This document shows positions 7,052 to 22,322 of a DNA stretch of 44,453 bases, in pieces (positions within the stretch are counted from its first letter, which is position 1; each line of letters opens with the position of its first letter). The stretch is from positions 1 to 44,453 of the IMG/VR virus record IMGVR_UViG_3300030099_006678; one strand, given 5' to 3'. Under the pieces are notes generated by a model. That model was not told where the DNA came from, searched no databases, and saw nothing but the letters and a program-made list of their open reading frames with translations. Source of the stretch: a virus. A program made the position numbers and the translations under genes.

Positions 7052-10000
7052 ATGACAGTAGATAGAGTAAAGTTTCAGGAAATTGTATCCAGTCAAGTTC
7101 CTAGGTATGTTAGAGAGGACTTTCCTCTTCTAACAAATTTTCTTGAGCAATACTACGTTTCTCAGGAGCACCAGAGTGGTCCTGTAGACATTATCAATAA
7201 TATCGATCAATATGTAAAAGTAGAGGAACTTTGTAACTTAGTAACTGAAACAACTCTCGATGAGGATCTGGATTTTGTTGAGAGAGATGTAACTGTAAAA
7301 TCCACCCTTGGATTTTCTGACACGAATGGTGTAATTAAAATTGACGATGAGATTATATTTTACGAGTCGAAGACTGATACCGTATTTCAGAACTGTAGAA
7401 GAGGATTCAGTGGTATTACAACATATATCACCACTGGTTCTCCCGATGAACTTACCTTCTCTCAGACAGAGATAGATGAGCACACTACTGGAACAAAGGT
7501 TGAAAATCTAAATGTTCTCTTCCTTCAACAATTTTTCACTAAACTCAAGACTCAAATAACTCCTGGATTCCAGGACAGAAGTTTTTCCAAGGGTCTTGAT
7601 GCAAGAAACTTTATTTTTAATTCTGATAGTTTCTATACTTCAAAGGGAACTGACCAATCTTATGAAATTTTGTTCAGAGCTCTGTATGGTGAAGATGTAG
7701 AAATCATCAAACCTTCACAGTTCCTTTTAACTCCTTCTAACGCTGACTACAAGGTAACTCAAGAATTTGTTGTTGAGAAGTTACAGGGCGATCCACTTAA
7801 ACTCAATAACCTTACCATTTTTCAAAAAGAAACTGGTGCCAGAGGTTCTGTTACTAATGTTCAACTGATTCCTTATGATAAGTATCAATATTATCAAATT
7901 AGCATTGATGGTGGATTTTCAAGAGACTCCGATGTAGCAGGTTCCATCTTTGGTGAGTTTAAACCCAACCCCCTCACCAAGCTTCTTGAACCTGTCAGTG
8001 TTGGTGCAACTGTAATTAACGTAGACTCTACTGTTGACTTCCCAGAATTCGGTAATATCGTCATCGTTGACTCAGATGGAAATGAAGTAAGTGTTGCTTA
8101 TACTGGAAAGACTGCTAATCAATTCTTCAATACAAACGTATCAAGTACATTTCCTAAGAAAGTAGATGTAAAATTCGATTCATATTCCTTCGCATATGTT
8201 GGTATTAATACATCTGAGGAAATAAGAGTCAGATTTACTTCCACCCTCAAAGATTTCAAAGAAGATCAAGCCACATATTTCTTTAGAAAAGATGACACGA
8301 TTCAGATCAAGTCATTAGGTCTTGAGTCGGAAGGCAAGAAATCTAATAATTGGTATACTAACGTTAAATCAAAATTCAAAATTGAAGAAACCACCGTACT
8401 TGATGCAAACAATTTTACCTATCAACATGAGTTTTTCAAAGACAGTTTACTAAAAGAAGGTTATTCTGTAAGATATGAAAATTTTGATAGCTCTGTTTCT
8501 ATTCTGGGTGAGGTAACAAGTTTAAATTCTGCAAACAATGTTACCGTTCAATATAATGAAGCAATTCCCCTGAGTGGTGTTTTCTTTATTGAAAATCAAT
8601 TACTAAAAGGGGATTCCGCAAGGTATCCATACCTTTCAAATTTTGTAGCCAATACTCAGAATATCTACGCCAAATTTAATGGTGATGTTCTTGTTGCTTC
8701 AAACTCTATCCCAAATTTTGATGGGGTTGCTACTAATTCATATGACAATAAGATCACATTCTCTGCTTCATTACTAAGCACAAATGTAATCACACTTCCC
8801 ACTAATCCCACAACTCTACCTGATCATGGTTTCTATACAGGAGACACGATTTATTTTGAGTCAAACGGTGATGGTTTCCAGGGAATAGGTTCAGCAAATT
8901 ACTTTGTAGGGAGAGTAGACGAGAGTAATATAAGACTTGCAAGAAGTAAAGCAGATTTGGCGAGAGGAACTTTCCTCACATTCAATGGATCTGTTGTAGA
9001 TGCATCAATAACTCTTCTTGAAAGTTACAAAAAGAATATTGAACCACAAGGTATCTTTAGACAGATAACCACACCTATAATTAGAAAAAAATCCTACGAT
9101 ACACAACCAGGACACACTGGTATCTTTATTAATGGTGTCGAACTATTAAACTATAAGTCATCTAACAATGTATACTTTGGTGATATTCAAAGGTTCACGA
9201 TGGTCGCTGGTGGCACCGATTATGATATTATAAATCCACCTATTTTAGAAGTTAAGGATGAAGTAGGAACTGGTGCAACAGGTATCACTAATGTTAAAGG
9301 TGCTCTAGAGAGACTTGAAGTAACTGAGACTGGAATGGGATATATTAAACCTCCCACCATCGGTATTTCTGGTGGAAATGGTTTTGGTGCTTCAGCTAAA
9401 GCCAATATGATCCAGATTAAACATGAAAATACATTTATCGCAAATTCACTTGATGCTGTAAAACTAGCCACAAATGAGATTGTATTTAAGACGGATCACA
9501 AATTTGTTAATGGTGAGGGTGTTATTTACGAACCCAGAGGTTCAAAAGTTGTCACTGGTCTGACAACAGGTGCCAAGTATTATATTAACGTCACTGGCCA
9601 AACCAGTGTTCAGTTCCATAATGCGAGGAATGAAGCATTTGCTGGTATCAACACCGTCAGTTTGACCGCATTCGGTAGTGGTAATCAATACTTTGTTTCC
9701 GAAGATCTAAAGCAAGTTGTTTCTTCCGTTGTTATCACAAATACCGGTGTAGGATATGAGAACAAGCAAAGAACAATTCCATCTGTAGGTGTCAACACAT
9801 CTACTGATAGAGTCGAGATTATCAATCATGGTTACAAGACTGGAGAAATTGTAAGATATAAGCAGGCAACACCTGCCATCTCAGGTTTATCAGAAAATAA
9901 AGATTACTTTGTCATAAAAGTAAATGAGGATGCCTTCAAACTGACAGAAGTTGGTACTGGTGGTGTTGATAGAGAATTTTTCCTTAAGAATAATATCTGT

Positions 10001-13000
10001 GTTGACTTTAGAAATGCAGGAAGAGGATCCTTTAATTATCCTCCAATTGTAATATCAATTCAAGGTGCAGCTGCAGTATTTGATGAAAGTTTTGTTGAAG
10101 ACTTCCAAGAACTTTTTATCATTGAGTCTCCAATCGAAGAAGATATTACAACACCATTTAAAGTTCTTGCTTGGACAGATACTGAAGCAGAGCTTACAGA
10201 TCCATACTTTGTTCTTGTCAGTGAACAATCTAACTGGTTGATCAGTGATGATCCATTCATTGGCAATATTTTACTTTACGGAGCAGAAGTTCAACCTATT
10301 TTCAGAGGTAGTATTGAGTCAATCGACCTAACTGCTGGTGGTGTTGGTTATGGATCTTCGGAAATTCTTGATTTCCAGAGACAGCCTGAAATAACCTTCA
10401 ATTCTGGTAAAGATGCAGTATTGACACCCATCATTAATAATGGTCAAATTTCTGAGGTCATCGTAAATCAGGGAGGAACTGATTTCAATGCACCACCTAC
10501 ACTTGAGGTTATTAGTGATACTGGTAGTTTTGCAGTTCTTATTGCACAAGTTGAAAATAACCAAATTTCTAACGTTATTGTGAGGAAGGGTGGTGCAGGT
10601 TACGAATCTGGTAAAGTAACAATCAATATTATTCCTGCAGGTAGAAATGCAAGAGCCATTGCAAATATTAAAACTTGGAATGTTAATCAATTTGAGAGAA
10701 AATTTGCAAATATTCTTGAAGATGACTGTCTGATCACAGAAAATATTAACGGAAAATCTCTACAATTCAGCTCTCTTTATGCTCAACGACCACTTAGAAG
10801 AAATACTAATACTTTAAGTGGTTTTGGAAAGAATAACGTCAAATATGGATTCTTTGATATTACATTAAATGTAAATGATGAGGAAATTGATAATGTTTTC
10901 CACTCACCAATCTTAGGTTGGGCATATGATGGAAACCCAATTTACGGACCATATGGATTTGGAAATATTGATGGCACCGGTTCTGTTCGTAGAATGGTTA
11001 GTGGTTATAAACTAGTTCCCACTGCTAGTAATAGACCAGACTACACCACATTTCCCAACGGATTCTTTGTCAATGATTATATTTTTACTGGTGATGGTGA
11101 TCTAGATGAATCAAACGGTAGATTCTGTGTCACACCTGATTTTCCCAATGGAGTTTATGCATATTTCTGTACCATTTCTGATAATATCGATACATCTGGC
11201 CCATTCAACAAATTCAGAAGACCAGTATTCCCTTATGTAATTGGTAATGAGTATCATTCTGTTCCCAATCCATTTAACTTTAAATCTATATCTAATCAAA
11301 ACGAATATGACGTAGTGAATGATGGTTGGTTTAGAAATACCAAATTTTATTATACAACTGGTGGAGATGCGGGTTACGATTACATTTACAACTCAGATCT
11401 GGAGAGAAATCAATCTCTTGATGTTACTGCCACAACGACAGGTTCTGTTGATGCACTGGAAATTCTTGATCCGGGAACTGACTATGCAGTAAATGATAAG
11501 GTTGTATTCAATTCAACAGGAACTTCTGGTAGAAATGTAAAATACAAAGTTTCTGAACTGAAGGGTAAGACTGTCAATAATGTATCTCTAGCAACCACTT
11601 TCATTGAAAATGTTGAATTCGGTAGTGGAAATAATCCCAATAACTTTATTGGATTTACTTCTGCGCCTCATAATTTCCTTCCTAGAGATACCGTTTTTAT
11701 TGATGACCTCTCAGAATACTATAAGGGATTTGATGGAGCATACACCATTGGAGTATCAAGTGAGAGATGGTATGTTTCAGTAGGTATTCAGACAGATGCA
11801 ATTACAGGTATTCAAACATACATTTACCTTAATGGTAGTTTGGACGAGCAGGTAATCAGAACAAACGATATTCTTAGAATTGAAAATGAAAAACTTCAAG
11901 TCCTCAATATTGATCAAGACTCTGGAAGAGTAAGAGTTTTGAGAGGAGTTGATGGAACTCTTGGAGTAGCACACTCTGCAGGCGTTGTCGTCAGAGATGA
12001 TCCTAGAAAGATTAGATTTACATCTACTGGTATTACCACCAATAGATCATTTAAGATCAATAAACAGTTCTACTTTAAACCTGATGAATCTGTAGGTGTC
12101 GGAACAGCTGATGTAGTAATGTTCTCAGGTATTACCACAGTCACATTCTCCAATCCTGGTGTTGGATTGACCACGTTAAATCTGGGTCAACAGCAGATAT
12201 TCATTCCAGATCATAAATTAGAACTTAATACTCCAATGAAGTATTTCCCCAATAGTGGAACTTCTATTGAAGTTTGGAGTGGAGTTGAAAATACACCAAA
12301 ATATAATCTTACTGAAACCAGAAATGTATTTGCTGTCCCACTATCAGATAATGTAATCGGAATTGCTACACAGAGAGTTGGTGTTAATTCCAATGGTGTA
12401 TTCGTAGGAATTGATTCAAATGCCGGTGGATTGTTGTATTTCAGTAATGTAACAGGTGTTGGAAGTTATCATAGTTTCAATACTAATATCAGTAGTGTAT
12501 TGAAGGGTCGGGTATCACAGAATATTGTTACTGTGTCCACTGCACAAACTCACGGAATGAGTCGTGGGGATAGGGTTACTGTTGACGTAAATCCAACCAC
12601 CACTACAACTATTAAAGTTCAATATGATGATTATAATAGAAGAATTGTATTTGATCCTGATGTAATAGATGCAACTGGTATTAATACAAACGCCAATACT
12701 TTCACTGTTCCTACAAATAAGTATTTTACAGGTGATAAGGTCATCTACACGTCAGATAATCCATCTGTCAACATGACATCATCTGATATGTACTTTGTGT
12801 ATAATCTAAAGAATGATGTTATTAAACTGGTAAGGAATAAGAACGAACTCAATAGTGAGAATCCTACATTTGTCAATGTAGGTAGTGCTAACACTGCCAC
12901 TTTGGCCCGTATTAACCCACAGGTCGAAATTCAGAAGAATCAAATTATCAAATTTGATTTATCAGACTCTTCTCTGGCATTTACAAATAGTGGTATTCAA

Positions 13001-16000
13001 ACATCCGCCTTTGATATGTTCCTGTATGCGGACCCACAAAAAATAAATGAGTTCTATACTACAAAATCTAAGTCACAATTTGAAGTCACTAAAAATGGTG
13101 TGATAGGTGTTGATACCACTGCTTCACTGACCCTTACAGTAAGTGATAATATTCCACATGTTCTATTTTATGGATTAGAACCAGATAACATTGATATTCT
13201 TCCAGGCGTAAAGAAAGAAATCTTTGAGGATAATACGGTTCCTGAAAATAATACTCTCAATTTGGTTAAAAATAAATTTGATGGTATTTTCAATGTTGTT
13301 GGTGTAACATCAACCACGTTTGATTATAATATTCCATTTGATTATGATACTATCGTTTCTTATGGGTCAACTAATTCCAGAATTACATATAATACAGCAT
13401 CTTTGACGGCAATAGGCCCAATCAATAAAGTATTCTCTGATAATAAAGGTGTTGCTTATAAAACACTTCCTGGATTTACGTCTGTCACCAGTGTAAAAGG
13501 AACTGGTGCTCTCCTAAAACCAACTAGCACCTCAATCGGTAGTATTATTTCTACTAAGATTAATAATATTGGTTTTGGTTATCCATCTGACAATACACTT
13601 AATGCTGTAGGCAATCTCCCTCTCGTATTGGAGCTTGACCCACTTGGCAGTTTTGAATTCATTGGAATTTCCTCTGGTGGTGTCAATTATAGTCAGGCAC
13701 CTGATCTTGTTGTTATTGATGGTTTTACTGACAAACAGATTACAGACTTAGATCTTACTTATGATTTGAACGATAATAACGTAACCATTAATAGAAACAC
13801 TAATTCACTTAATAATGTTTCTCCCGAGATTATTCCGATCAATAATACTAACGGATTTAGTATTAGTTCGGTTACTTATAATTCTACAACTAAAATCGTT
13901 CGTCTATTCTTCTCAAATATCTTTAGTGATGTTCAGGATTGGCCATTCAAGGTTGGTGAGAAAGTTCTTGTAGAAAATATTGCTGTTGGTTTTGGAACAG
14001 CAGGTAAGGGTTACAACTCTGAAGATTACGATTATACATTATTTGAGGTAACCAATCTTGATAGTAATCTAGGAGGTAGTGGTTCATTTATTGAATACGA
14101 TCTTACGAACCTTCTTGAAACTGGAGAATTCCCTGGAAATACAACAAATCTTGTTGCAGGTTCAGTAACTCCCAAGACATTCTTCCCAATTTTTGATACG
14201 AAGATTTCCACTAAGGACTTTGTTGCAGGTGAAGTAGTACAAAATCCAAGTGGTGTTGGTATTGTAGAGAGATATGATGGTGTAAGCGGATTCCTGCTTG
14301 TCACTTCTGAGGATGATTTTGAGGTTGGATCAATTATAAGATCTGAAACCACTGGTACTCAGGCTCGTATTAATTCTTTCATTGACTTTAACTCCACAAT
14401 CAAACTGGGTGTAGGTGCCACGTTTAATGCTGGGTGGCAAGATAATTCAGGAGTACTAAATGATAATCTTCAGGTTCTTCCCAATAATGAGTACTATCAA
14501 AACTTCTCTTATTCACTGAAATCGAGAGTAGACTTTGGTACATGGGATGATGCAGTCAGTTCTCTTAATCATACCGCAGGATTCCAAAAATTTGCTGATC
14601 ATTTGATTGACAATAATGCTGTTGGTATTGTAACAGCAGTTGGTTCTGAAATTGAAACTGTTATTGATCTTATTGGTGAAGAAAAACTTAATTGTTTCCC
14701 AGATTTTGATTTTGCCTCTGAGAGAACCATTGACATTGGTAATAATAAAGTTGTTTCGGATCGAGTAGTATTTGAAAACAAGATTCTTATTGATTATTTT
14801 GAATCTAGAGGAAACAGAGTATTGAGAATTGATGACTTTAGTTCTTCATTCAATAGCAATCCTAGATCCACTAATTTCTCAGTGGTCACTACTTACGATG
14901 ATTCTTTCACATACAATAAGATCTTTACCCTGGTACAAGATAAGGAACTTAGGAATAGAAAGCAATCCGCTATTGTTTCCGTCCTTCAAGATAAGAACGA
15001 CGGATATGTAAGTCAATACTCCACACTTGATACTGCCACACCTCTTGGATTCTTTGGTCACACAAGTATCGGAACAAGTGAGTGGGGTCTTACATTTACA
15101 CCAAATCTCTTTGAATTCAACAACTATGATGTTACCACTTTCCAATTCAGTGGACTTGACAATGTAACTGGAATTGGATCTACAGCAATTGGTAATTTGG
15201 TATCTATTGCTTCATCATCTGTATCTGTACCTGTCGCTACGGAAACAACACTTCTTACAATTCCAACATCTGAAAGATCGGCAAAACTTCTGGTTCAACT
15301 TCAAGACAGTCAGAACAATTACTTCATGTCTGAGTTCAGTCTTCTGCATGATGGTACAAACGTAGAGATGCTGCAGTATGGTGATATAACAAATAATTCT
15401 GGAATGACCGGTCAAGACGCATTTGGAACATATAAGGCAGAAATCTCTGGATCTGATCTGGTCTTTAGTATTGTTCCCACAGTAGGAACAGCGGTCACTG
15501 CCAACGTATCTGCTGTCCTTACAAATGCTGGTACGTCTGGTGTTGGAACCGTCAGTATGGAGGTTACCAACCTGTCATCATACTATAAGTCTATAGCTTC
15601 TTCAGGATCACCCACTGCTAATTTGATTGCCACTTATGATAATCCATTCGCATCTGAATACTTTGTTGTAACTGTTCACGACACAACAAATAATGAGTAT
15701 GAGATGTTTGAATGTAATGTCCTAGATTCCGACAATTTCATGATTGTCAAGTATGGCGACGTTAAAACTAACGTGGGTCTTGGAACAGTTGGTGTTACTA
15801 AAACTAGTAATACAACTAATCTTGTATACACTCCAAATGCAAGTATCAATGTTGAAGTAAGAGCATTTGGTATTGGACTCAAGAACTTTAATAATATTGT
15901 TGGTATTAATTCAATCTCAACTCTTAATAACAACATTCTATGGTCTAAGTTTGGTGGATACACCGGAACTGAAAATGACAAGAAGAGAGCATTTAAACTG

Positions 16001-19000
16001 ACACACGACAGTAATCCAATTTTCCAAAAACAATTCCTTGGAAATAGTGCATCTGTTGTTAACGTATCAAATAACAGTATTATTATTCCAAATCACTTCT
16101 TTAATACTGGTGAAAAATTAATTTACAGTTACGAAAATTCTGCATCATCTACTGCTAATGCTGTTGGAATTGCTACTACCTCAATCTCTGGTATTTCGAC
16201 TGATAAGTTACCCACGACATTATTTGCAGTTAAGTTGAGTGATGTTAGTATTGGATTAGCAACAGATGCAGCTGCTGCGCTGGCAGCCACACCAACAACA
16301 TTGGATATCACCTCTGTTGGTATTGGAACAAACCACAAATTAACTTCAACCAATCAAAATGCAAGAGCATTGGTTGCAATTGATAACATGATTCAGGCAC
16401 CAGTGACGGAAGTTGATGTATCAACTACTCTTTCACAAGAGGTTATATTTGATGTTGATTTCATTGTTAGTGGTATATCCTCATTTAGAGCTAATGATCT
16501 GATTAAGATCAACGATGAAATGATGCTAATTCAGGACATCGGTGTTGGTGCAACCAACAGATTAAGAGTATTGAGAGCTCAAATGGGTACAGGTATTGGT
16601 ACTCATGCAAACGGTACAGCCGTGGAGCTCATGGGTGGTAACTACAATATTGTTGATAACACTATTAACTTTATAGAAGCTCCATTTGGTGCGATTCCTA
16701 TCGGTACCACCACTGACGGTCCAAGTAATGTAGACTTCTCAGGGATTACAACATTCTCCACTTTCCAAGGAAGAACATTTATGAGAAGTGGAATTGTTGA
16801 TGGATCTGAAGATACTTATGCTACAAACCTTACATTTGACAATATTCAATCTCAGTTTAATGGCCAAAAGAAAACTTATAGGTTAACCCAGAATGGAGTT
16901 AACATTACAGGGTTCTCTACAAACAATGCTATTGTTCTGAATTCTAATATTCTTCAAGAGCCACAGGGTGGTCAGATTAATGTTGGTGATTTTAATATCA
17001 CAGAACCATCATCGGGTATCTCAAGTATTACCTATCTTGGTGATAGTGTTTCATCTGGTGACGATCCCAATAAGGCAACTATTCCCAGAGGCGGTATCAT
17101 TGTATCTGTGGCCTCTACTCCTGGATTCGGATATCAACCATTAGTCTCGGCTGGTGCAACTGTTAATGTGTCTGCTGCTGGAACAATCTTATCCACTGTT
17201 ATCAACAATCCTGGTTCTGGTTACAGGGTCGGTGTTCAAACAGTGAATGTTGGATATGCAGTATCCGCAACAGGAATTACTACTGTTGTTAATATCGGAA
17301 CAGCCACCGTTCAAAATGGTGAGATTGTTGCAATCACTACTAGCTTCATTGGTGCAAATCTTGATGATTTACATCCACCTCTAGTTGTTATTGATGCACC
17401 ACTTCCATATCAGAACATTCCTCTAGTTTATTCTGATGGTATTGTCGGAACAGGAACTGGAGCAAAAGTTGATGTAACTGTTGGTCAGGGGTCAAGTATT
17501 ATTTCCTTTGATATTGTTAACAAGGGATTTGGATACAAAGAGGGTGAAATAGTCAGACCTGCTATTGGTGGGACAACTGGTATTCAGACTACTGCCACCT
17601 ATGATGAATTCCAACTCACCATCGAAGATGTTTTCCGTGACAGCTTCAATGGATTTACAATTGGAGAACTTGATGTATTTGATGATCTTGCCCCACAATT
17701 TGATGGATTTAAAAAATCGTTTGATCTCACTATATCAGACAAACAGTTCTCTATTGAAGTTGCTGAAGGATCAAACATTAACATTGCACAGTGTTTGATT
17801 GTAACAATCAATGATATCCTTCAGGTTCCTAATCAGTCATATAAGTTTAACGGTGGTGCGGTAATTGAGTTTACTGAAGCACCCAAGAAGGGTGACAAGT
17901 CCAAGATTATTTTCTATAAGGGAACAGCAGGTGTAGATGTTGTCTTGGTGGATATTACTGAGACAATTAAAGTCGGTGATACCGTACAACTGAAGAACAA
18001 CCCTGGTGCAGGTCAAGGATTTGGTTTATTCCAAGATACCAGAACTGTAACAGGTATTACTACCCTTGATACAGTTAGAACGTTTGCATATGACGGTCCT
18101 GGTATTACGACTAATCAAACTTTGGTAAGACCAGTCACCTGGTGTAAACAGGTTAATGATATTATCATTAATGGTCAATTTATTACTAAGGATAGAGAAG
18201 ATCAAGAACCATCTATCTTCCCTGCAGCATATCTAACAAGTTATGTTGGTGTCACAAGCACCTATGCATACACAGATACTACAAGACCACTGTTCAGTGG
18301 TAGAAATGAAACTAACCTTGTTGACTATCAAGATCGTATTACACTAATCGATCAAAGAGAGTTCACAACAGCTCTTGGTGTTGCAACTGTAGGTTTTGGA
18401 ACAACCGTTACTTCAGTTACAATTACAAATGTTGGATCTGGTTATTCAACCTTTACTCCAACAGTGTCCTTCTCATTGCCTGATGATATCAATGGTGTTA
18501 GAGCAACAGGCACTGCAAATGTAACTGGAAGTGGTGTCACATCAATTACAATCACTAATCCTGGAAGTGGATACACAAATACAAATCCACCAACTGTTTT
18601 GGTTGAAGTTCCAACACTTAGAAGTGAAACAATTGGAGTTTCTACTTATAAGGGTGATTTCGGTCAGATAGTTGGTTATGCACAATCCACGGGTGGTCTT
18701 GGTACTTTAGAACTCTTTATTCCTGAAACATCAGATCTCAGAAAAGAATCTGTGATGGGTGTTGGAGCTGCAATCACTGTGAGTACATTGACTATTGGTG
18801 ATATCTTTGTTGTCAATAATTCTAATACAATATCCACTACAACTATGGATGGTGTATATGAAGTTTCTCAAGCATTTGATGTAGTAAAAGATCTGACATC
18901 TGTTGGAATTGGAACAACAACTATTAGAAGAGTTGAAGTTGCGACTACTGGTTTTGGTACCGTAGATGGTGTGTTCCATAATGATTACTTCTGGGGAGAA

Positions 19001-19141
19001 TACTCATTCGGTAAAATTGAATTCCTCAATAGAGCATCTAGTACTGCTCTTGAATTTACACCAAATCCCTACTCTGGACTCTCTACCTCAGTCTTAGTTC
19101 AAAGATTGAGACCATTGAAGTTTAATGGTTACACCAATTAA
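7052..19141 (+). CDS. 7: Giant baseplate wedge protein gp7 (4029 aa) with YHYH domain
   Basis: One uninterrupted 12-kb frame. The first ~230 residues hold the gp7 landmark: FPLLTNFLEQYY near the start and FYTSKGTDQSYEILFRALYG (residues 194-213) followed by EDVEII, which parallels the FYSTKGIEASYKFLFKVLYN/EEVEIE of T4 gp7 as I remember it. In T4 (1032 aa) this lies in the last third; here it is at the N-terminus with about 3800 residues after it. Visible modules: a YHYH-type domain (about residues 1240-1400; H1284, GWAYDGNPIYGPYGF, later GVYAYFCT); three D/E-E-x-M/I modules (nt 7328-7500, 11868-11990, 16498-16630); and many VxNxGxGYxxxPxV beta repeats. It starts 15 bases after gp6. In T4, gp7 nucleates wedge assembly with gp10, gp8, gp6, gp53 and gp25; the extra mass probably forms peripheral baseplate arms. 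Confidence 0.85.
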   Translation: MTVDRVKFQEIVSSQVPRYVREDFPLLTNFLEQYYVSQEHQSGPVDIINNIDQYVKVEELCNLVTETTLDEDLDFVERDVTVKSTLGFSDTNGVIKIDDEIIFYESKTDTVFQNCRRGFSGITTYITTGSPDELTFSQTEIDEHTTGTKVENLNVLFLQQFFTKLKTQITPGFQDRSFSKGLDARNFIFNSDSFYTSKGTDQSYEILFRALYGEDVEIIKPSQFLLTPSNADYKVTQEFVVEKLQGDPLKLNNLTIFQKETGARGSVTNVQLIPYDKYQYYQISIDGGFSRDSDVAGSIFGEFKPNPLTKLLEPVSVGATVINVDSTVDFPEFGNIVIVDSDGNEVSVAYTGKTANQFFNTNVSSTFPKKVDVKFDSYSFAYVGINTSEEIRVRFTSTLKDFKEDQATYFFRKDDTIQIKSLGLESEGKKSNNWYTNVKSKFKIEETTVLDANNFTYQHEFFKDSLLKEGYSVRYENFDSSVSILGEVTSLNSANNVTVQYNEAIPLSGVFFIENQLLKGDSARYPYLSNFVANTQNIYAKFNGDVLVASNSIPNFDGVATNSYDNKITFSASLLSTNVITLPTNPTTLPDHGFYTGDTIYFESNGDGFQGIGSANYFVGRVDESNIRLARSKADLARGTFLTFNGSVVDASITLLESYKKNIEPQGIFRQITTPIIRKKSYDTQPGHTGIFINGVELLNYKSSNNVYFGDIQRFTMVAGGTDYDIINPPILEVKDEVGTGATGITNVKGALERLEVTETGMGYIKPPTIGISGGNGFGASAKANMIQIKHENTFIANSLDAVKLATNEIVFKTDHKFVNGEGVIYEPRGSKVVTGLTTGAKYYINVTGQTSVQFHNARNEAFAGINTVSLTAFGSGNQYFVSEDLKQVVSSVVITNTGVGYENKQRTIPSVGVNTSTDRVEIINHGYKTGEIVRYKQATPAISGLSENKDYFVIKVNEDAFKLTEVGTGGVDREFFLKNNICVDFRNAGRGSFNYPPIVISIQGAAAVFDESFVEDFQELFIIESPIEEDITTPFKVLAWTDTEAELTDPYFVLVSEQSNWLISDDPFIGNILLYGAEVQPIFRGSIESIDLTAGGVGYGSSEILDFQRQPEITFNSGKDAVLTPIINNGQISEVIVNQGGTDFNAPPTLEVISDTGSFAVLIAQVENNQISNVIVRKGGAGYESGKVTINIIPAGRNARAIANIKTWNVNQFERKFANILEDDCLITENINGKSLQFSSLYAQRPLRRNTNTLSGFGKNNVKYGFFDITLNVNDEEIDNVFHSPILGWAYDGNPIYGPYGFGNIDGTGSVRRMVSGYKLVPTASNRPDYTTFPNGFFVNDYIFTGDGDLDESNGRFCVTPDFPNGVYAYFCTISDNIDTSGPFNKFRRPVFPYVIGNEYHSVPNPFNFKSISNQNEYDVVNDGWFRNTKFYYTTGGDAGYDYIYNSDLERNQSLDVTATTTGSVDALEILDPGTDYAVNDKVVFNSTGTSGRNVKYKVSELKGKTVNNVSLATTFIENVEFGSGNNPNNFIGFTSAPHNFLPRDTVFIDDLSEYYKGFDGAYTIGVSSERWYVSVGIQTDAITGIQTYIYLNGSLDEQVIRTNDILRIENEKLQVLNIDQDSGRVRVLRGVDGTLGVAHSAGVVVRDDPRKIRFTSTGITTNRSFKINKQFYFKPDESVGVGTADVVMFSGITTVTFSNPGVGLTTLNLGQQQIFIPDHKLELNTPMKYFPNSGTSIEVWSGVENTPKYNLTETRNVFAVPLSDNVIGIATQRVGVNSNGVFVGIDSNAGGLLYFSNVTGVGSYHSFNTNISSVLKGRVSQNIVTVSTAQTHGMSRGDRVTVDVNPTTTTTIKVQYDDYNRRIVFDPDVIDATGINTNANTFTVPTNKYFTGDKVIYTSDNPSVNMTSSDMYFVYNLKNDVIKLVRNKNELNSENPTFVNVGSANTATLARINPQVEIQKNQIIKFDLSDSSLAFTNSGIQTSAFDMFLYADPQKINEFYTTKSKSQFEVTKNGVIGVDTTASLTLTVSDNIPHVLFYGLEPDNIDILPGVKKEIFEDNTVPENNTLNLVKNKFDGIFNVVGVTSTTFDYNIPFDYDTIVSYGSTNSRITYNTASLTAIGPINKVFSDNKGVAYKTLPGFTSVTSVKGTGALLKPTSTSIGSIISTKINNIGFGYPSDNTLNAVGNLPLVLELDPLGSFEFIGISSGGVNYSQAPDLVVIDGFTDKQITDLDLTYDLNDNNVTINRNTNSLNNVSPEIIPINNTNGFSISSVTYNSTTKIVRLFFSNIFSDVQDWPFKVGEKVLVENIAVGFGTAGKGYNSEDYDYTLFEVTNLDSNLGGSGSFIEYDLTNLLETGEFPGNTTNLVAGSVTPKTFFPIFDTKISTKDFVAGEVVQNPSGVGIVERYDGVSGFLLVTSEDDFEVGSIIRSETTGTQARINSFIDFNSTIKLGVGATFNAGWQDNSGVLNDNLQVLPNNEYYQNFSYSLKSRVDFGTWDDAVSSLNHTAGFQKFADHLIDNNAVGIVTAVGSEIETVIDLIGEEKLNCFPDFDFASERTIDIGNNKVVSDRVVFENKILIDYFESRGNRVLRIDDFSSSFNSNPRSTNFSVVTTYDDSFTYNKIFTLVQDKELRNRKQSAIVSVLQDKNDGYVSQYSTLDTATPLGFFGHTSIGTSEWGLTFTPNLFEFNNYDVTTFQFSGLDNVTGIGSTAIGNLVSIASSSVSVPVATETTLLTIPTSERSAKLLVQLQDSQNNYFMSEFSLLHDGTNVEMLQYGDITNNSGMTGQDAFGTYKAEISGSDLVFSIVPTVGTAVTANVSAVLTNAGTSGVGTVSMEVTNLSSYYKSIASSGSPTANLIATYDNPFASEYFVVTVHDTTNNEYEMFECNVLDSDNFMIVKYGDVKTNVGLGTVGVTKTSNTTNLVYTPNASINVEVRAFGIGLKNFNNIVGINSISTLNNNILWSKFGGYTGTENDKKRAFKLTHDSNPIFQKQFLGNSASVVNVSNNSIIIPNHFFNTGEKLIYSYENSASSTANAVGIATTSISGISTDKLPTTLFAVKLSDVSIGLATDAAAALAATPTTLDITSVGIGTNHKLTSTNQNARALVAIDNMIQAPVTEVDVSTTLSQEVIFDVDFIVSGISSFRANDLIKINDEMMLIQDIGVGATNRLRVLRAQMGTGIGTHANGTAVELMGGNYNIVDNTINFIEAPFGAIPIGTTTDGPSNVDFSGITTFSTFQGRTFMRSGIVDGSEDTYATNLTFDNIQSQFNGQKKTYRLTQNGVNITGFSTNNAIVLNSNILQEPQGGQINVGDFNITEPSSGISSITYLGDSVSSGDDPNKATIPRGGIIVSVASTPGFGYQPLVSAGATVNVSAAGTILSTVINNPGSGYRVGVQTVNVGYAVSATGITTVVNIGTATVQNGEIVAITTSFIGANLDDLHPPLVVIDAPLPYQNIPLVYSDGIVGTGTGAKVDVTVGQGSSIISFDIVNKGFGYKEGEIVRPAIGGTTGIQTTATYDEFQLTIEDVFRDSFNGFTIGELDVFDDLAPQFDGFKKSFDLTISDKQFSIEVAEGSNINIAQCLIVTINDILQVPNQSYKFNGGAVIEFTEAPKKGDKSKIIFYKGTAGVDVVLVDITETIKVGDTVQLKNNPGAGQGFGLFQDTRTVTGITTLDTVRTFAYDGPGITTNQTLVRPVTWCKQVNDIIINGQFITKDREDQEPSIFPAAYLTSYVGVTSTYAYTDTTRPLFSGRNETNLVDYQDRITLIDQREFTTALGVATVGFGTTVTSVTITNVGSGYSTFTPTVSFSLPDDINGVRATGTANVTGSGVTSITITNPGSGYTNTNPPTVLVEVPTLRSETIGVSTYKGDFGQIVGYAQSTGGLGTLELFIPETSDLRKESVMGVGAAITVSTLTIGDIFVVNNSNTISTTTMDGVYEVSQAFDVVKDLTSVGIGTTTIRRVEVATTGFGTVDGVFHNDYFWGEYSFGKIEFLNRASSTALEFTPNPYSGLSTSVLVQRLRPLKFNGYTN

Positions 19142-19173: not shown

Positions 19174-20727
19174 ATGGCATTCCAAGGAATTAACACTGGC
19201 TCTGCACCAAATGATGGCACTGGTGATACCCTCCTGGCCGGTGGTATAAAAGTTAATAGTAATTTTACTGAATTATACAGTCTCCTTGGTAATGGATCTA
19301 CTCTAGCTGTGGGTGTTGTCACTAATACCGGTGATGCATCAGGTGTAACCGGTATCACCACTCTGATTCAAGCCGGTAGTAACATTTCAGTAACAACAAA
19401 TTCTGGAATTTCTACTATTGCGTATACAGGTATTGCTAATACTGCAAATATCAATGCTAATACAGTTAATGTAAGCGGTATTGTCACTGCAACTAGTTTC
19501 AACGGTTCTGGTGCCTCACTGACTGGTGTTTTAACAGCATTGAATCTCGATGGTGCTGATGGTTCTGGTCTTGTCGGTGTTGTAACAACTCTTACTGGAG
19601 CTGATGGTTCTGGTCTTGTCGGTGTTGTAACGACTCTGACAGGTGCAGACGCATCAGGTGTAACTGGTATTACTACACTGATTTCTGCTGGTAGTAATAT
19701 TACAGTGGAGACCACTGCTGGTATAACCACTATCGCATCAACGGCTAGTGGTGTTTCAACCGCCAATGTTAGCACAAATACATTAGTTGTTGCTGGTGTC
19801 TCCACATTTGCTGGTAATGTAGAAGTAACTGCTCAACAGATAATTATTAATAATAGTAATTCACAACTTCGATTTGAAAATGGATCTGGAGGATTTGTAG
19901 GAAGTCTGATCAGGTCTGGTACTGCTGATTTAGTTATAGGTTCAGCTGATGACTTAAAACTTAGATCTGGACTTAATGATGATGTAAAAATATCTGATGG
20001 TAGTTTTGATTATCCTAGAGCAATTTTTAAACGTAATGAGGTAGAACTCTACTACAACAATTCTAAGAAATTTGAAACCACTGGTGTCGGTGTAACTGTC
20101 TTTGGAATCATACAAACTCAGCAGTTAAATGTTTCCGGTGTTTCAACATTCCAAGGAAGAATGATTGGTACTGACACCAATAATGTCATCCCATTCTATT
20201 ACAATAATTATAGCGACTTCCCATCATCTAGTACATACCACGGTGCTGTTGCTCATGCACATAATACCGGCAAATTGTATTTCGCCCATGTTGGTTGGAA
20301 GGAGTTAGTCAATAAAGAATCAGATGGAACTGTTGGTACAGGAACTGAAACATATAATGTTGGTCTTATCACTGCTATTGGAAATAATCTAGTTACTTCT
20401 CAATGGACACTAGGTGCAAGTGGTTCTAGTCACTACACATTCACTGGTCCAGGAAATCTGAATGGTACATCTGACCCAGTAATTTATCTTGCAAGAGGTC
20501 AAACCTATCAGTTTGTTAATAACTCAGGTGGTTCCCATCCGTTTGAAATCAGAGAATCAAATGGTGGTTCAGCATATAGTACTGGTGTAACCAATAATGC
20601 AGCCGCTAGTGGTGTTATTAAATTTGAAGTTCCCTTTGATGCACCAAATACACTTTACTACCAATGCACAAACCATGCCGGTATGGGTGGAACTGTGGTG
20701 GTATATCCTAACAAGTTTACAGTCTAA
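19174..20727 (+). CDS. Tail-fibre-like virion protein with C-terminal cupredoxin domain (517 aa)
   Basis: The N-terminus (MAFQGINTGSAPNDGTGDTL, then VNSNFTELYSLLG) is typical of marine phage fibre proteins. A Ser/Thr/Val-rich beta-repeat shaft follows (residues ~30-240), including a 45-base tandem repeat, and then a NVIPFYYNNYSDFPSSSTYH region with GKLYFAHVGWKEL, known from phage tail proteins. The last ~105 residues look like a small blue-copper fold: SHYTFTGPG, VIYLARGQTYQFVNNSGGSH and YYQCTNHAGMGGTVVVYP. The ligands H455, C498, H501 and M504 have the Cys-x2-His-x2-Met spacing of amicyanin. Placed between gp7 and gp8 with its own late box, it is probably a baseplate-attached fibre or spike. 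Copper binding is inferred. Confidence 0.8.
   Translation: MAFQGINTGSAPNDGTGDTLLAGGIKVNSNFTELYSLLGNGSTLAVGVVTNTGDASGVTGITTLIQAGSNISVTTNSGISTIAYTGIANTANINANTVNVSGIVTATSFNGSGASLTGVLTALNLDGADGSGLVGVVTTLTGADGSGLVGVVTTLTGADASGVTGITTLISAGSNITVETTAGITTIASTASGVSTANVSTNTLVVAGVSTFAGNVEVTAQQIIINNSNSQLRFENGSGGFVGSLIRSGTADLVIGSADDLKLRSGLNDDVKISDGSFDYPRAIFKRNEVELYYNNSKKFETTGVGVTVFGIIQTQQLNVSGVSTFQGRMIGTDTNNVIPFYYNNYSDFPSSSTYHGAVAHAHNTGKLYFAHVGWKELVNKESDGTVGTGTETYNVGLITAIGNNLVTSQWTLGASGSSHYTFTGPGNLNGTSDPVIYLARGQTYQFVNNSGGSHPFEIRESNGGSAYSTGVTNNAAASGVIKFEVPFDAPNTLYYQCTNHAGMGGTVVVYPNKFTV
19555..19644 (+). repeat. 45-base in-frame tandem repeat in the fibre gene
   Basis: Two copies start at 19555 and 19600; their first 32 bases (gctgatggttctggtcttgt...) are identical, and a diverged third copy follows from about 19645. 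Each copy encodes a 15-residue unit of the form ADGSGLVGVVTTLTG. The period and composition suit a beta-helical or triple-stranded fibre shaft that can grow or shrink by slippage. Confidence 0.8.
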
Positions 20728-20762: not shown

Positions 20763-22322
20763 ATGGCTGCGATAATTACTGATCAACTTCGTATTTTGAA
20801 TGCAAAGAATTTTGTAGATTCAGTACAGAATTCTTCTAATTCATATTACGCATGGATTGGTCTTCCAGATGCTCCCGAGTTCCAGAGTGACTGGAATTCT
20901 AATCCTCCTGCACCTAAGGATTGCTTAGATGATTCCAATTATTATTGGGATACTATGTTGGCCCTGAAAAAGATCAACTCTGGGGATGTAAGTCAGGTTG
21001 TTAAGAAGATTACCTGGCAGTCAGGTACCACATATGATATGTGGAGAAACGATATTGATAGAAATAATCCATCGCAACCATCTGGAGCACTGGATATTTA
21101 CGATTCTAACTTCTATGTAATGAATAGTGAGTTTAAGGTTTATATCTGTTTGTTCAATAATGCAAATCCAGAGAATAGTTTTAGAGGCGGACCTTCTCTG
21201 GATGAACCAAATTTCACTGATTTGGAGCCCAGAGAGGCTGGAAGTAGTGGTGATGGTTACATTTGGAAGTATCTTTACACAATTAAACCCAATCAAATCA
21301 TTAAATTTGACTCTACAAACTTTATTCCAGTTCCTAACGATTGGGAAACTGACTCATCTTATACTTCTGTAAGAGAAAATGCAGGTAAAAGTGGTCAAAT
21401 TAAGATTGTGACCATCAGAAATCGTGGTGTTGGTATTGGAACAGCCAATATTACCTACACTAGAGTGCCAATTAGAGGTGATGGAAGGGGCGGAGAGGCC
21501 ACTGTTGTCGTTAATAATGACTCAAAAATTGAATCTGTAACCATTTCTAACGGAGGAAACGGATATTCTTTCGGAACATTGGATTTGGTAGAGGGTGGAG
21601 TTCCTACTGGAACGGTAGATCCTATCTTTAACGTCATTATTCCTCCTCCTGGAGGTCATGGAGCCGATATTTACCGTGAATTGGGTGCAAATAATGTCCT
21701 CTCTTATGCAAGATTTGAAAATGACACCCAAAATCCCGATTTTATCACTGGAAATCAGTTTGCACAGGTCGGAATTGTCAAAAATCCCAAAAATTTCAAT
21801 TCAACGATCAACCTGACTACCGATAAAGCTAGTGCTGTCTACGCTTTGAAGCTTGTTGGAACCGGATTTAGTGAAGCTGTCTTTACTGCAGATACTACTT
21901 TTACTCAAACTGTTGGTTTGGGTTCTACGGCCATCGGTAAAGTTGTGTCCTACGATCAACAAACTGGTGTTTTAAAATACTGGCAAGATAGACGGACTGC
22001 TGGTTTCAACACAGATGGCACTCAAAACTCAAATCCAAAATTTGGTTTTGAACAAATTAGATTTACTGCTTCACCAGTGACAGGTGGTAGTGTTCAAATT
22101 AATCCAACCACAGGAAATACTCTAAACATTGATCAGTCGTTCTCAGGTGTATCTACTACGATAAATAATCGTACATACTTCTTGGGTCAGGAATTCACGA
22201 GTGGAGTTTCCAATCCAGAGTCTCAAAAATACTCTGGTGACATCATTTATGTTGATAACAGACCTTCTGTTACTAGATCATCTTCACAGAAAGAAGACGT
22301 AAAAGTTATCTTGCAATTCTAA
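20763..22322 (+). CDS. 8: Baseplate wedge subunit gp8 (519 aa)
   Basis: gp8 bridges gp6, gp7 and gp10 in the T4 wedge. The first ~210 residues match the pattern of the cyanophage version: NSSNSYYAWIGLPDAPEFQS, YYWDTMLALKKINSGDVSQV, YDMWRNDIDRNNPS, FYVMNSEFKVYICLFNN and GDGYIWKYLYTIKPNQIIKF. The protein is much longer than T4 gp8 (334 aa); the extension around residues 215-290 is made of the Gly-rich beta repeats also found in gp7 and gp14 (RNRGVGIG, then SNGGNGYSFG). The next gene starts 6 bases after the stop, so both are cotranscribed from the box at 20736. Confidence 0.88.
   Translation: MAAIITDQLRILNAKNFVDSVQNSSNSYYAWIGLPDAPEFQSDWNSNPPAPKDCLDDSNYYWDTMLALKKINSGDVSQVVKKITWQSGTTYDMWRNDIDRNNPSQPSGALDIYDSNFYVMNSEFKVYICLFNNANPENSFRGGPSLDEPNFTDLEPREAGSSGDGYIWKYLYTIKPNQIIKFDSTNFIPVPNDWETDSSYTSVRENAGKSGQIKIVTIRNRGVGIGTANITYTRVPIRGDGRGGEATVVVNNDSKIESVTISNGGNGYSFGTLDLVEGGVPTGTVDPIFNVIIPPPGGHGADIYRELGANNVLSYARFENDTQNPDFITGNQFAQVGIVKNPKNFNSTINLTTDKASAVYALKLVGTGFSEAVFTADTTFTQTVGLGSTAIGKVVSYDQQTGVLKYWQDRRTAGFNTDGTQNSNPKFGFEQIRFTASPVTGGSVQINPTTGNTLNIDQSFSGVSTTINNRTYFLGQEFTSGVSNPESQKYSGDIIYVDNRPSVTRSSSQKEDVKVILQF

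Follow-up and report, generated by a model that had tools for sequence, protein, structure and literature searches.

In phage T4, gp9 is the connector that joins the long tail fibre to the baseplate. Gp9-type connectors of the Kyanoviridae (PHROG 677, 'baseplate wedge tail fiber protein connector') are recorded as gp9 connector, minor tail protein or hypothetical protein, with no copper site mentioned in these records; many isolate members, among them those from P-SSM7, S-RIM8, ACG-2014a and ACG-2014d, have the same C-terminal domain as the protein analysed here. Metal on phage tails as such is known: iron held by HxH motifs has been proposed or shown for the fibres of T4 (gp37) and of Alteromonas phage R22Y, and in the 'Ferrojan horse' idea tail-borne iron is proposed as bait in attachment (PMC11705849). 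These HxH fibres hold octahedral Fe within the fibre trimer, whereas the domain considered here is predicted to form a globular 2His-Cys-Met site in a single chain. Copper proteins are also known from cyanophages, which carry the plastocyanin gene petE as a metabolic gene (PMC5083919). Our search of the open literature found no description of such a domain under cupredoxin, plastocyanin or copper on phage tails. Cupredoxin folds, gp9 and tail-borne metals are each known; their combination, its breadth and the all-or-none ligand pattern reported below are not described in the open papers searched.

The gp9-type protein and its gene neighbourhood

The window, i.e. the whole stretch of 44 453 nt that was analysed, is a T4-like structural module that includes a 4029-aa baseplate protein, a gp9-type protein and gp8. 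The terminase is 89.9% identical to those of Synechococcus phages RN05-S and S-B43 and 89.7% identical to that of RB11-B; thus the source phage is most likely a T4-like Synechococcus cyanomyovirus. The module further includes gp25/gp6-like baseplate genes, neck proteins, gp17, gp18, gp19 and gp20; the identities of gp6, gp8, gp9 and the terminase were tested by search, and several of the other names are our reading of the ORFs. The gp9-type gene lies between the gene of the 4029-aa protein and gp8 (PF09215 match), which starts directly after it at 20763, and RB11-B has the same arrangement. We also noted that the 4029-aa protein (7052-19141) contains a YHYH domain (PF14240, E 3e-24; residues 1256-1377, window 10817-11182, + strand) in which the expected name-giving YHYH stretch seems to be YAYF. 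The gp9-type gene and the features of its first part are:

19174..20727, + strand: gp9-type baseplate wedge tail fiber connector, 517 aa (phrog_677, E 8e-55)
19183..19407, + strand: T4 gp9/10-like N-terminal baseplate anchor, residues 4-78 (Pfam PF07880, 30.8 bits, E 3.7e-7; cut-off 25 bits)
19551..19637, + strand: 45-bp tandem repeat of the stem, unit coding GADGSGLVGVVTTLT (TRF, 95% matches)

The ORF is as given in a preliminary description of this DNA, where its product was called a virion fibre-like protein; the match to the PHROG 677 tail profile, the gp9/10-like N-terminal region and the position beside gp8 support its assignment as a gp9-type connector. The part shown to be in common with T4 gp9 is the N-terminal PF07880 region. 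The copy number of the 45-bp repeat varies among related phages, and in the S-B43 record gp9 is broken into two ORFs within the repeat array.

The cupredoxin-like domain and its predicted ligands

The C-terminal part of the protein contains the following features:

20395..20709, + strand: cupredoxin-like C-terminal tip domain, residues 408-512 (domain HMM, PF00127, AF2 pLDDT 93, Foldseek)
20536..20538, + strand: His455, predicted N ligand, in an HPF motif (invariant in 25 of 25 Cys-bearing divergent representatives)
20665..20667, + strand: Cys498, predicted thiolate ligand and sole Cys of the protein (sequence and conservation)
20674..20676, + strand: His501, predicted N ligand (conservation in divergent representatives)
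20683..20685, + strand: Met504, predicted axial ligand (conservation; also kept in two of three ligand-less lineages)

The Copper-bind model PF00127 scores 24.0 bits (E 5e-5) on the domain alone and 21.1 bits on the whole 517-aa protein, the gathering cut-off being 21.2 bits, and is matched by 10 of 40 relatives at E 0.01. In a profile comparison (hhalign) with the cellular plastocyanin family, represented by 13 PF00127 proteins of which 12 are cyanobacterial, the domain matches with 93.6% probability (E 2e-7) and with the four ligands in register. The AlphaFold2 model, built with 40 relatives in the alignment, reaches pLDDT 93.1 and pTM 0.86; its strands 94-99 and 106-112 (local numbering) flank C99, H102 and M105, H56 (= H455) precedes strand 58-61, C498 ends a strand, and H501 and M504 lie in the loop preceding the last strand. 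The best 50 fold matches in the PDB are without exception copper proteins or multicopper oxidases of cupredoxin fold (nitrite reductases, rusticyanin, plastocyanins, amicyanin, auracyanin, AcoP, multicopper oxidases); match quality is moderate (TM about 0.5, rmsd 5-7), which means likeness at the level of the fold and not close superposition. The model thus has a Greek-key beta-sandwich with an early His, while Cys, His and Met belong to the loop that links the final pair of strands. Judged from profiles and model, the domain is homologous to cupredoxins at the fold level. The preliminary description had proposed a cupredoxin fold with a complete type-1 copper ligand set on this tail protein; sequence, profile, predicted fold and conservation all agree with it, and H455, C498, H501 and M504 are found where it placed them. 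Its extent of about 105 C-terminal residues needs a small correction, as the domain is present but slightly wider, at about residues 408-512.

Compared with the plastocyanin/azurin family (PF00127), the phage domain has the same fold and the same four ligands in register; it differs in its low score, in HP for HN, in extra N-terminal strands with the signature HYTFTGPG, and in being part of a virion protein. Its ligand loop, C-x2-H-x2-M, is two residues shorter than the C-x2-H-x4-M of cellular plastocyanins, and has the spacing of amicyanin and of the nitrite-reductase cupredoxin domain (CTPHPFM loop), as seen in nitrite-reductase chain 2vmj. The label 'amicyanin-type' given previously therefore fits the short loop but not the family, since the amicyanin model TIGR02657 yields 17 bits on the domain alone, under its curated cut-off of 110.2.

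Our first search for relatives had the ligand loop (YYQCTNHA) among its seed patterns. As such a seed could bias the result, the search was repeated with residues 400-454 only, a query containing none of the four ligands. This ligand-blind search still returned H, C, H and M in every copy long enough to read through the domain, so that the ligand set is, by sequence, far above chance expectation. Pooling the copies of at least 70 aa gave 198, which reduce to 29 representatives under 60% identity; all 25 Cys-bearing representatives have the four ligands. The only fully invariant columns among these 25 are H455, C498, H501, M504, Y496 and F447 (next column 96%). The invariant set includes remote copies found in P-SSM7, S-ShM2 and ACG-2014d, in the protein encoded downstream of gp9; as an HMM may more readily recover remote copies in which the motif is intact, the ligand-blind search is the firmer evidence. 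In P-SSM7 the protein after gp9 (T4-GC 399) has two remote domain copies, of which one has the full ligand set and the other lacks every ligand.

Two His, a Cys and a Met are thus present and conserved, as expected of a type-1 site, and the topology of the model, the fold matches and the profile alignment agrees with a site in which the four side chains would converge. On balance we favour the reading that the gp9-type C-terminus is an exchangeable cupredoxin-fold tip in which H455, C498, H501 and M504 most likely form a type-1-like site for a single metal ion, probably copper; homology and predicted fold, co-conserved ligands, module swapping and the virion-protein context all support it. It seems unlikely that the domain instead holds another soft or borderline metal (Zn, Fe or only Cu(I)) in a purely structural role, without a blue-copper site. 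The ligand set is coherent, which would suit such a site too, His clusters hold structural Fe in other phage fibres (HxH of T4 gp37; PMC11705849), and the His is followed here by Pro, where Asn is nearly invariant in the plastocyanin alignment. However, two His with Cys and Met in cupredoxin strand order are the signature of type-1 copper, and the nearest folds are all Cu proteins.

Lineages without the ligands

Three lineages lack the site, having FA[TVI]M, gap-A-F-M or GGTL in its place (GGTL in a single copy, from P-SSM7). In each of the three both His and the Cys are gone jointly, and no partial ligand set was found among the complete copies of the pool (198 copies of at least 70 aa). Free substitution of the Cys and the two His in homologues would have spoken against the site and was looked for; they are lost together and never singly, a result that favours a metal site rather than refuting one. 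When the ligand columns are left out, the resulting tree (a quick one, from 99 columns) requires three changes of state, three being forced by starred branches; owing to long branches, it is uncertain where in this tree the GGTL copy belongs. The large FA[TVI]M lineage has relatives, at about 50% identity, that carry the full ligand set. The all-or-none pattern is, at the sequence level, the best evidence supporting a genuine metal site.

The same lineages bear on the possibility that no metal is bound at all, the fold descending from that of a copper protein while packing alone maintains the four residues, or an inter-subunit disulfide or thiol contact maintains the Cys. The family tolerates loss of His, Cys and His, so that the module can serve without the site, which also counts against the metal-binding tip; Met504 stays in two of the three lineages where the other ligands are gone, and may therefore have an additional packing role; and the single Cys per chain could pair inside a fibre trimer. 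Yet a disulfide or packing would not couple the Cys to His501 and to His455, from which 43 residues of sequence separate it; among complete copies the Cys never occurs without both His, or the reverse; and the ligand columns stay fixed while remote copies diverge widely. We consider the absence of any metal quite unlikely, and a disulfide-only role of Cys498 is disfavoured by its joint loss with both His.

An AF2 model of a ligand-less lineage (15 sequences) has a pLDDT of 65 and weak fold matches, with plastocyanin first, and owing to this low confidence and the weak matches adds little; in profile comparison with plastocyanins this lineage gave no match (3% probability). In S-B05, a ligand-less copy (F-A-V-M) lies inside a separate tail fibre (record 76401-78743), gp9 being without the domain.

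Distribution, exchange and possible roles of the domain

The preliminary description considered a copper module on a phage tail unusual. In fact, it is common among marine T4-like cyanophages: a tblastn search with the domain retrieved 353 isolate records at E<=1e-3, almost all cyanophages (named Synechococcus, Prochlorococcus, 'Cyanophage' or marine virus, plus 2 Pelagibacter phages), and at E<=1 adds 4 Methylophilales phages. One or two copies per record were present in 18 records checked. Its place in the IMG/VR relatives varies: gp9-like proteins have it at the C-terminus, large fibre proteins internally, and some other proteins at the N-terminus. It also lies inside long fibres, subtilisin-like virion proteins and fibre-region proteins of podoviruses (P-GSP1, P-SCSP2), and among the structure matches from viruses are proximal tail fibres, S8/S53 peptidase proteins and S74 proteins. 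Such domains are present in most related marine viruses, whose tails may therefore, as far as sequences tell, hold metal ions.

Four phages with the common host Synechococcus MW02 illustrate how the domain is exchanged. The gp8 DNA of RB11-B, RN05-S, S-B05 and S-B43 is 99.5% identical, and 293-298 of the first 300 residues of gp9 are identical between RB11-B and the other three; only the RB11-B gp9 ends in the cupredoxin domain, the others in a short unrelated tail. Since near-identical stems carry different C-termini, the domain behaves like a swappable module, an exchangeable tip. The RB11-B domain is 73% identical to that of the window, and the two gp9 proteins agree at 136 of 487 aligned positions, i.e. 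the domain is far more alike than the stem. As RN05-S, S-B05 and S-B43 infect MW02 although their gp9 has no such domain, the domain on gp9 is not required for infecting this strain.

If the metal-binding tip is real, one metal ion, probably Cu, would sit in the site and lock the compact C-terminal beta-sandwich together with its ligand loop; the locked domain might then offer, outside the cell, a robust attachment surface for the host cell or for another fibre part. Electron transfer would not be needed. The C-terminal location would place the domain at the fibre tip; that it is internal in many relatives counts against this. Its modularity hints at a role in adhesion.

A type-1 copper site is redox-capable by chemistry, and redox sensing had been suggested previously; we found no support for redox or copper sensing, and nothing points to an electron partner. 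A redox sensor, or tip copper that docks on a host copper-uptake or copper-binding protein as a copper version of the Ferrojan horse, is in our view improbable: bait metal on tails has already been proposed for iron (PMC11705849), but there is no known partner, a docking surface was not found here, the same host strain is also infected by phages whose gp9 has no such domain, and Pelagibacter and Methylophilales phages also have relatives, which implies no photosynthetic partner. We are equally doubtful of the wider notion that marine cyanophages bear copper-loaded tail tips and use that copper in attachment, e.g. by docking on host-surface copper-handling proteins. If it were true, each particle would carry about 18 copper ions, given the T4 stoichiometry (about 18 gp9 per particle, extrapolated from T4 gp9), and the phage pool would also be a marine copper ligand. 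A captured plastocyanin fused to a tail protein and still serving host photosynthetic electron transport is scarcely credible and was rejected on family scores and gene context: petE is a known cyanophage metabolic gene (PMC5083919), but the plastocyanin model TIGR02656 yields 19.6 bits on the domain alone, under its curated cut-off of 87.85, the loop is shorter, the domain is part of a virion structural protein encoded among other structural genes, and phages of non-cyanobacterial hosts have relatives too.

The metal-binding tip would be a widespread, so far unnamed and probably metal-binding module on virions of abundant marine phages, with a bearing on phages as part of the marine copper ligand pool. 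The metal dependence of cyanophage attachment becomes directly testable with natural controls, namely the ligand-less lineages and the phages of a single host strain whose near-isogenic gp9 stems either carry the domain or lack it. As a caution, Copper-bind matches in viral contigs need not mean auxiliary metabolic genes.

Cellular genomes are almost without the domain, and a host-chromosomal origin was rejected on this ground: among 84 980 prokaryote genomes scanned there were 7 matches, of which four lie on phage-like contigs, one in a Prochlorococcus single-cell genome and the other two on a single Bacteroidetes MAG, and a 292-genome sample of the phylum of the Prochlorococcus cell gave 6 mostly weak matches. 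The two proteins of the Bacteroidetes MAG (RYN_284) are large and collagen-like; their copies of the domain are 43-50% identical to that of the phage and have the complete ligand set. Structure matches of the domain model in BFVD include three Marseillevirus- or Pithovirus-like 'beta-sandwich proteins' (A0A481YWX9, A0A481Z6J5 and A0A481Z7Q7).
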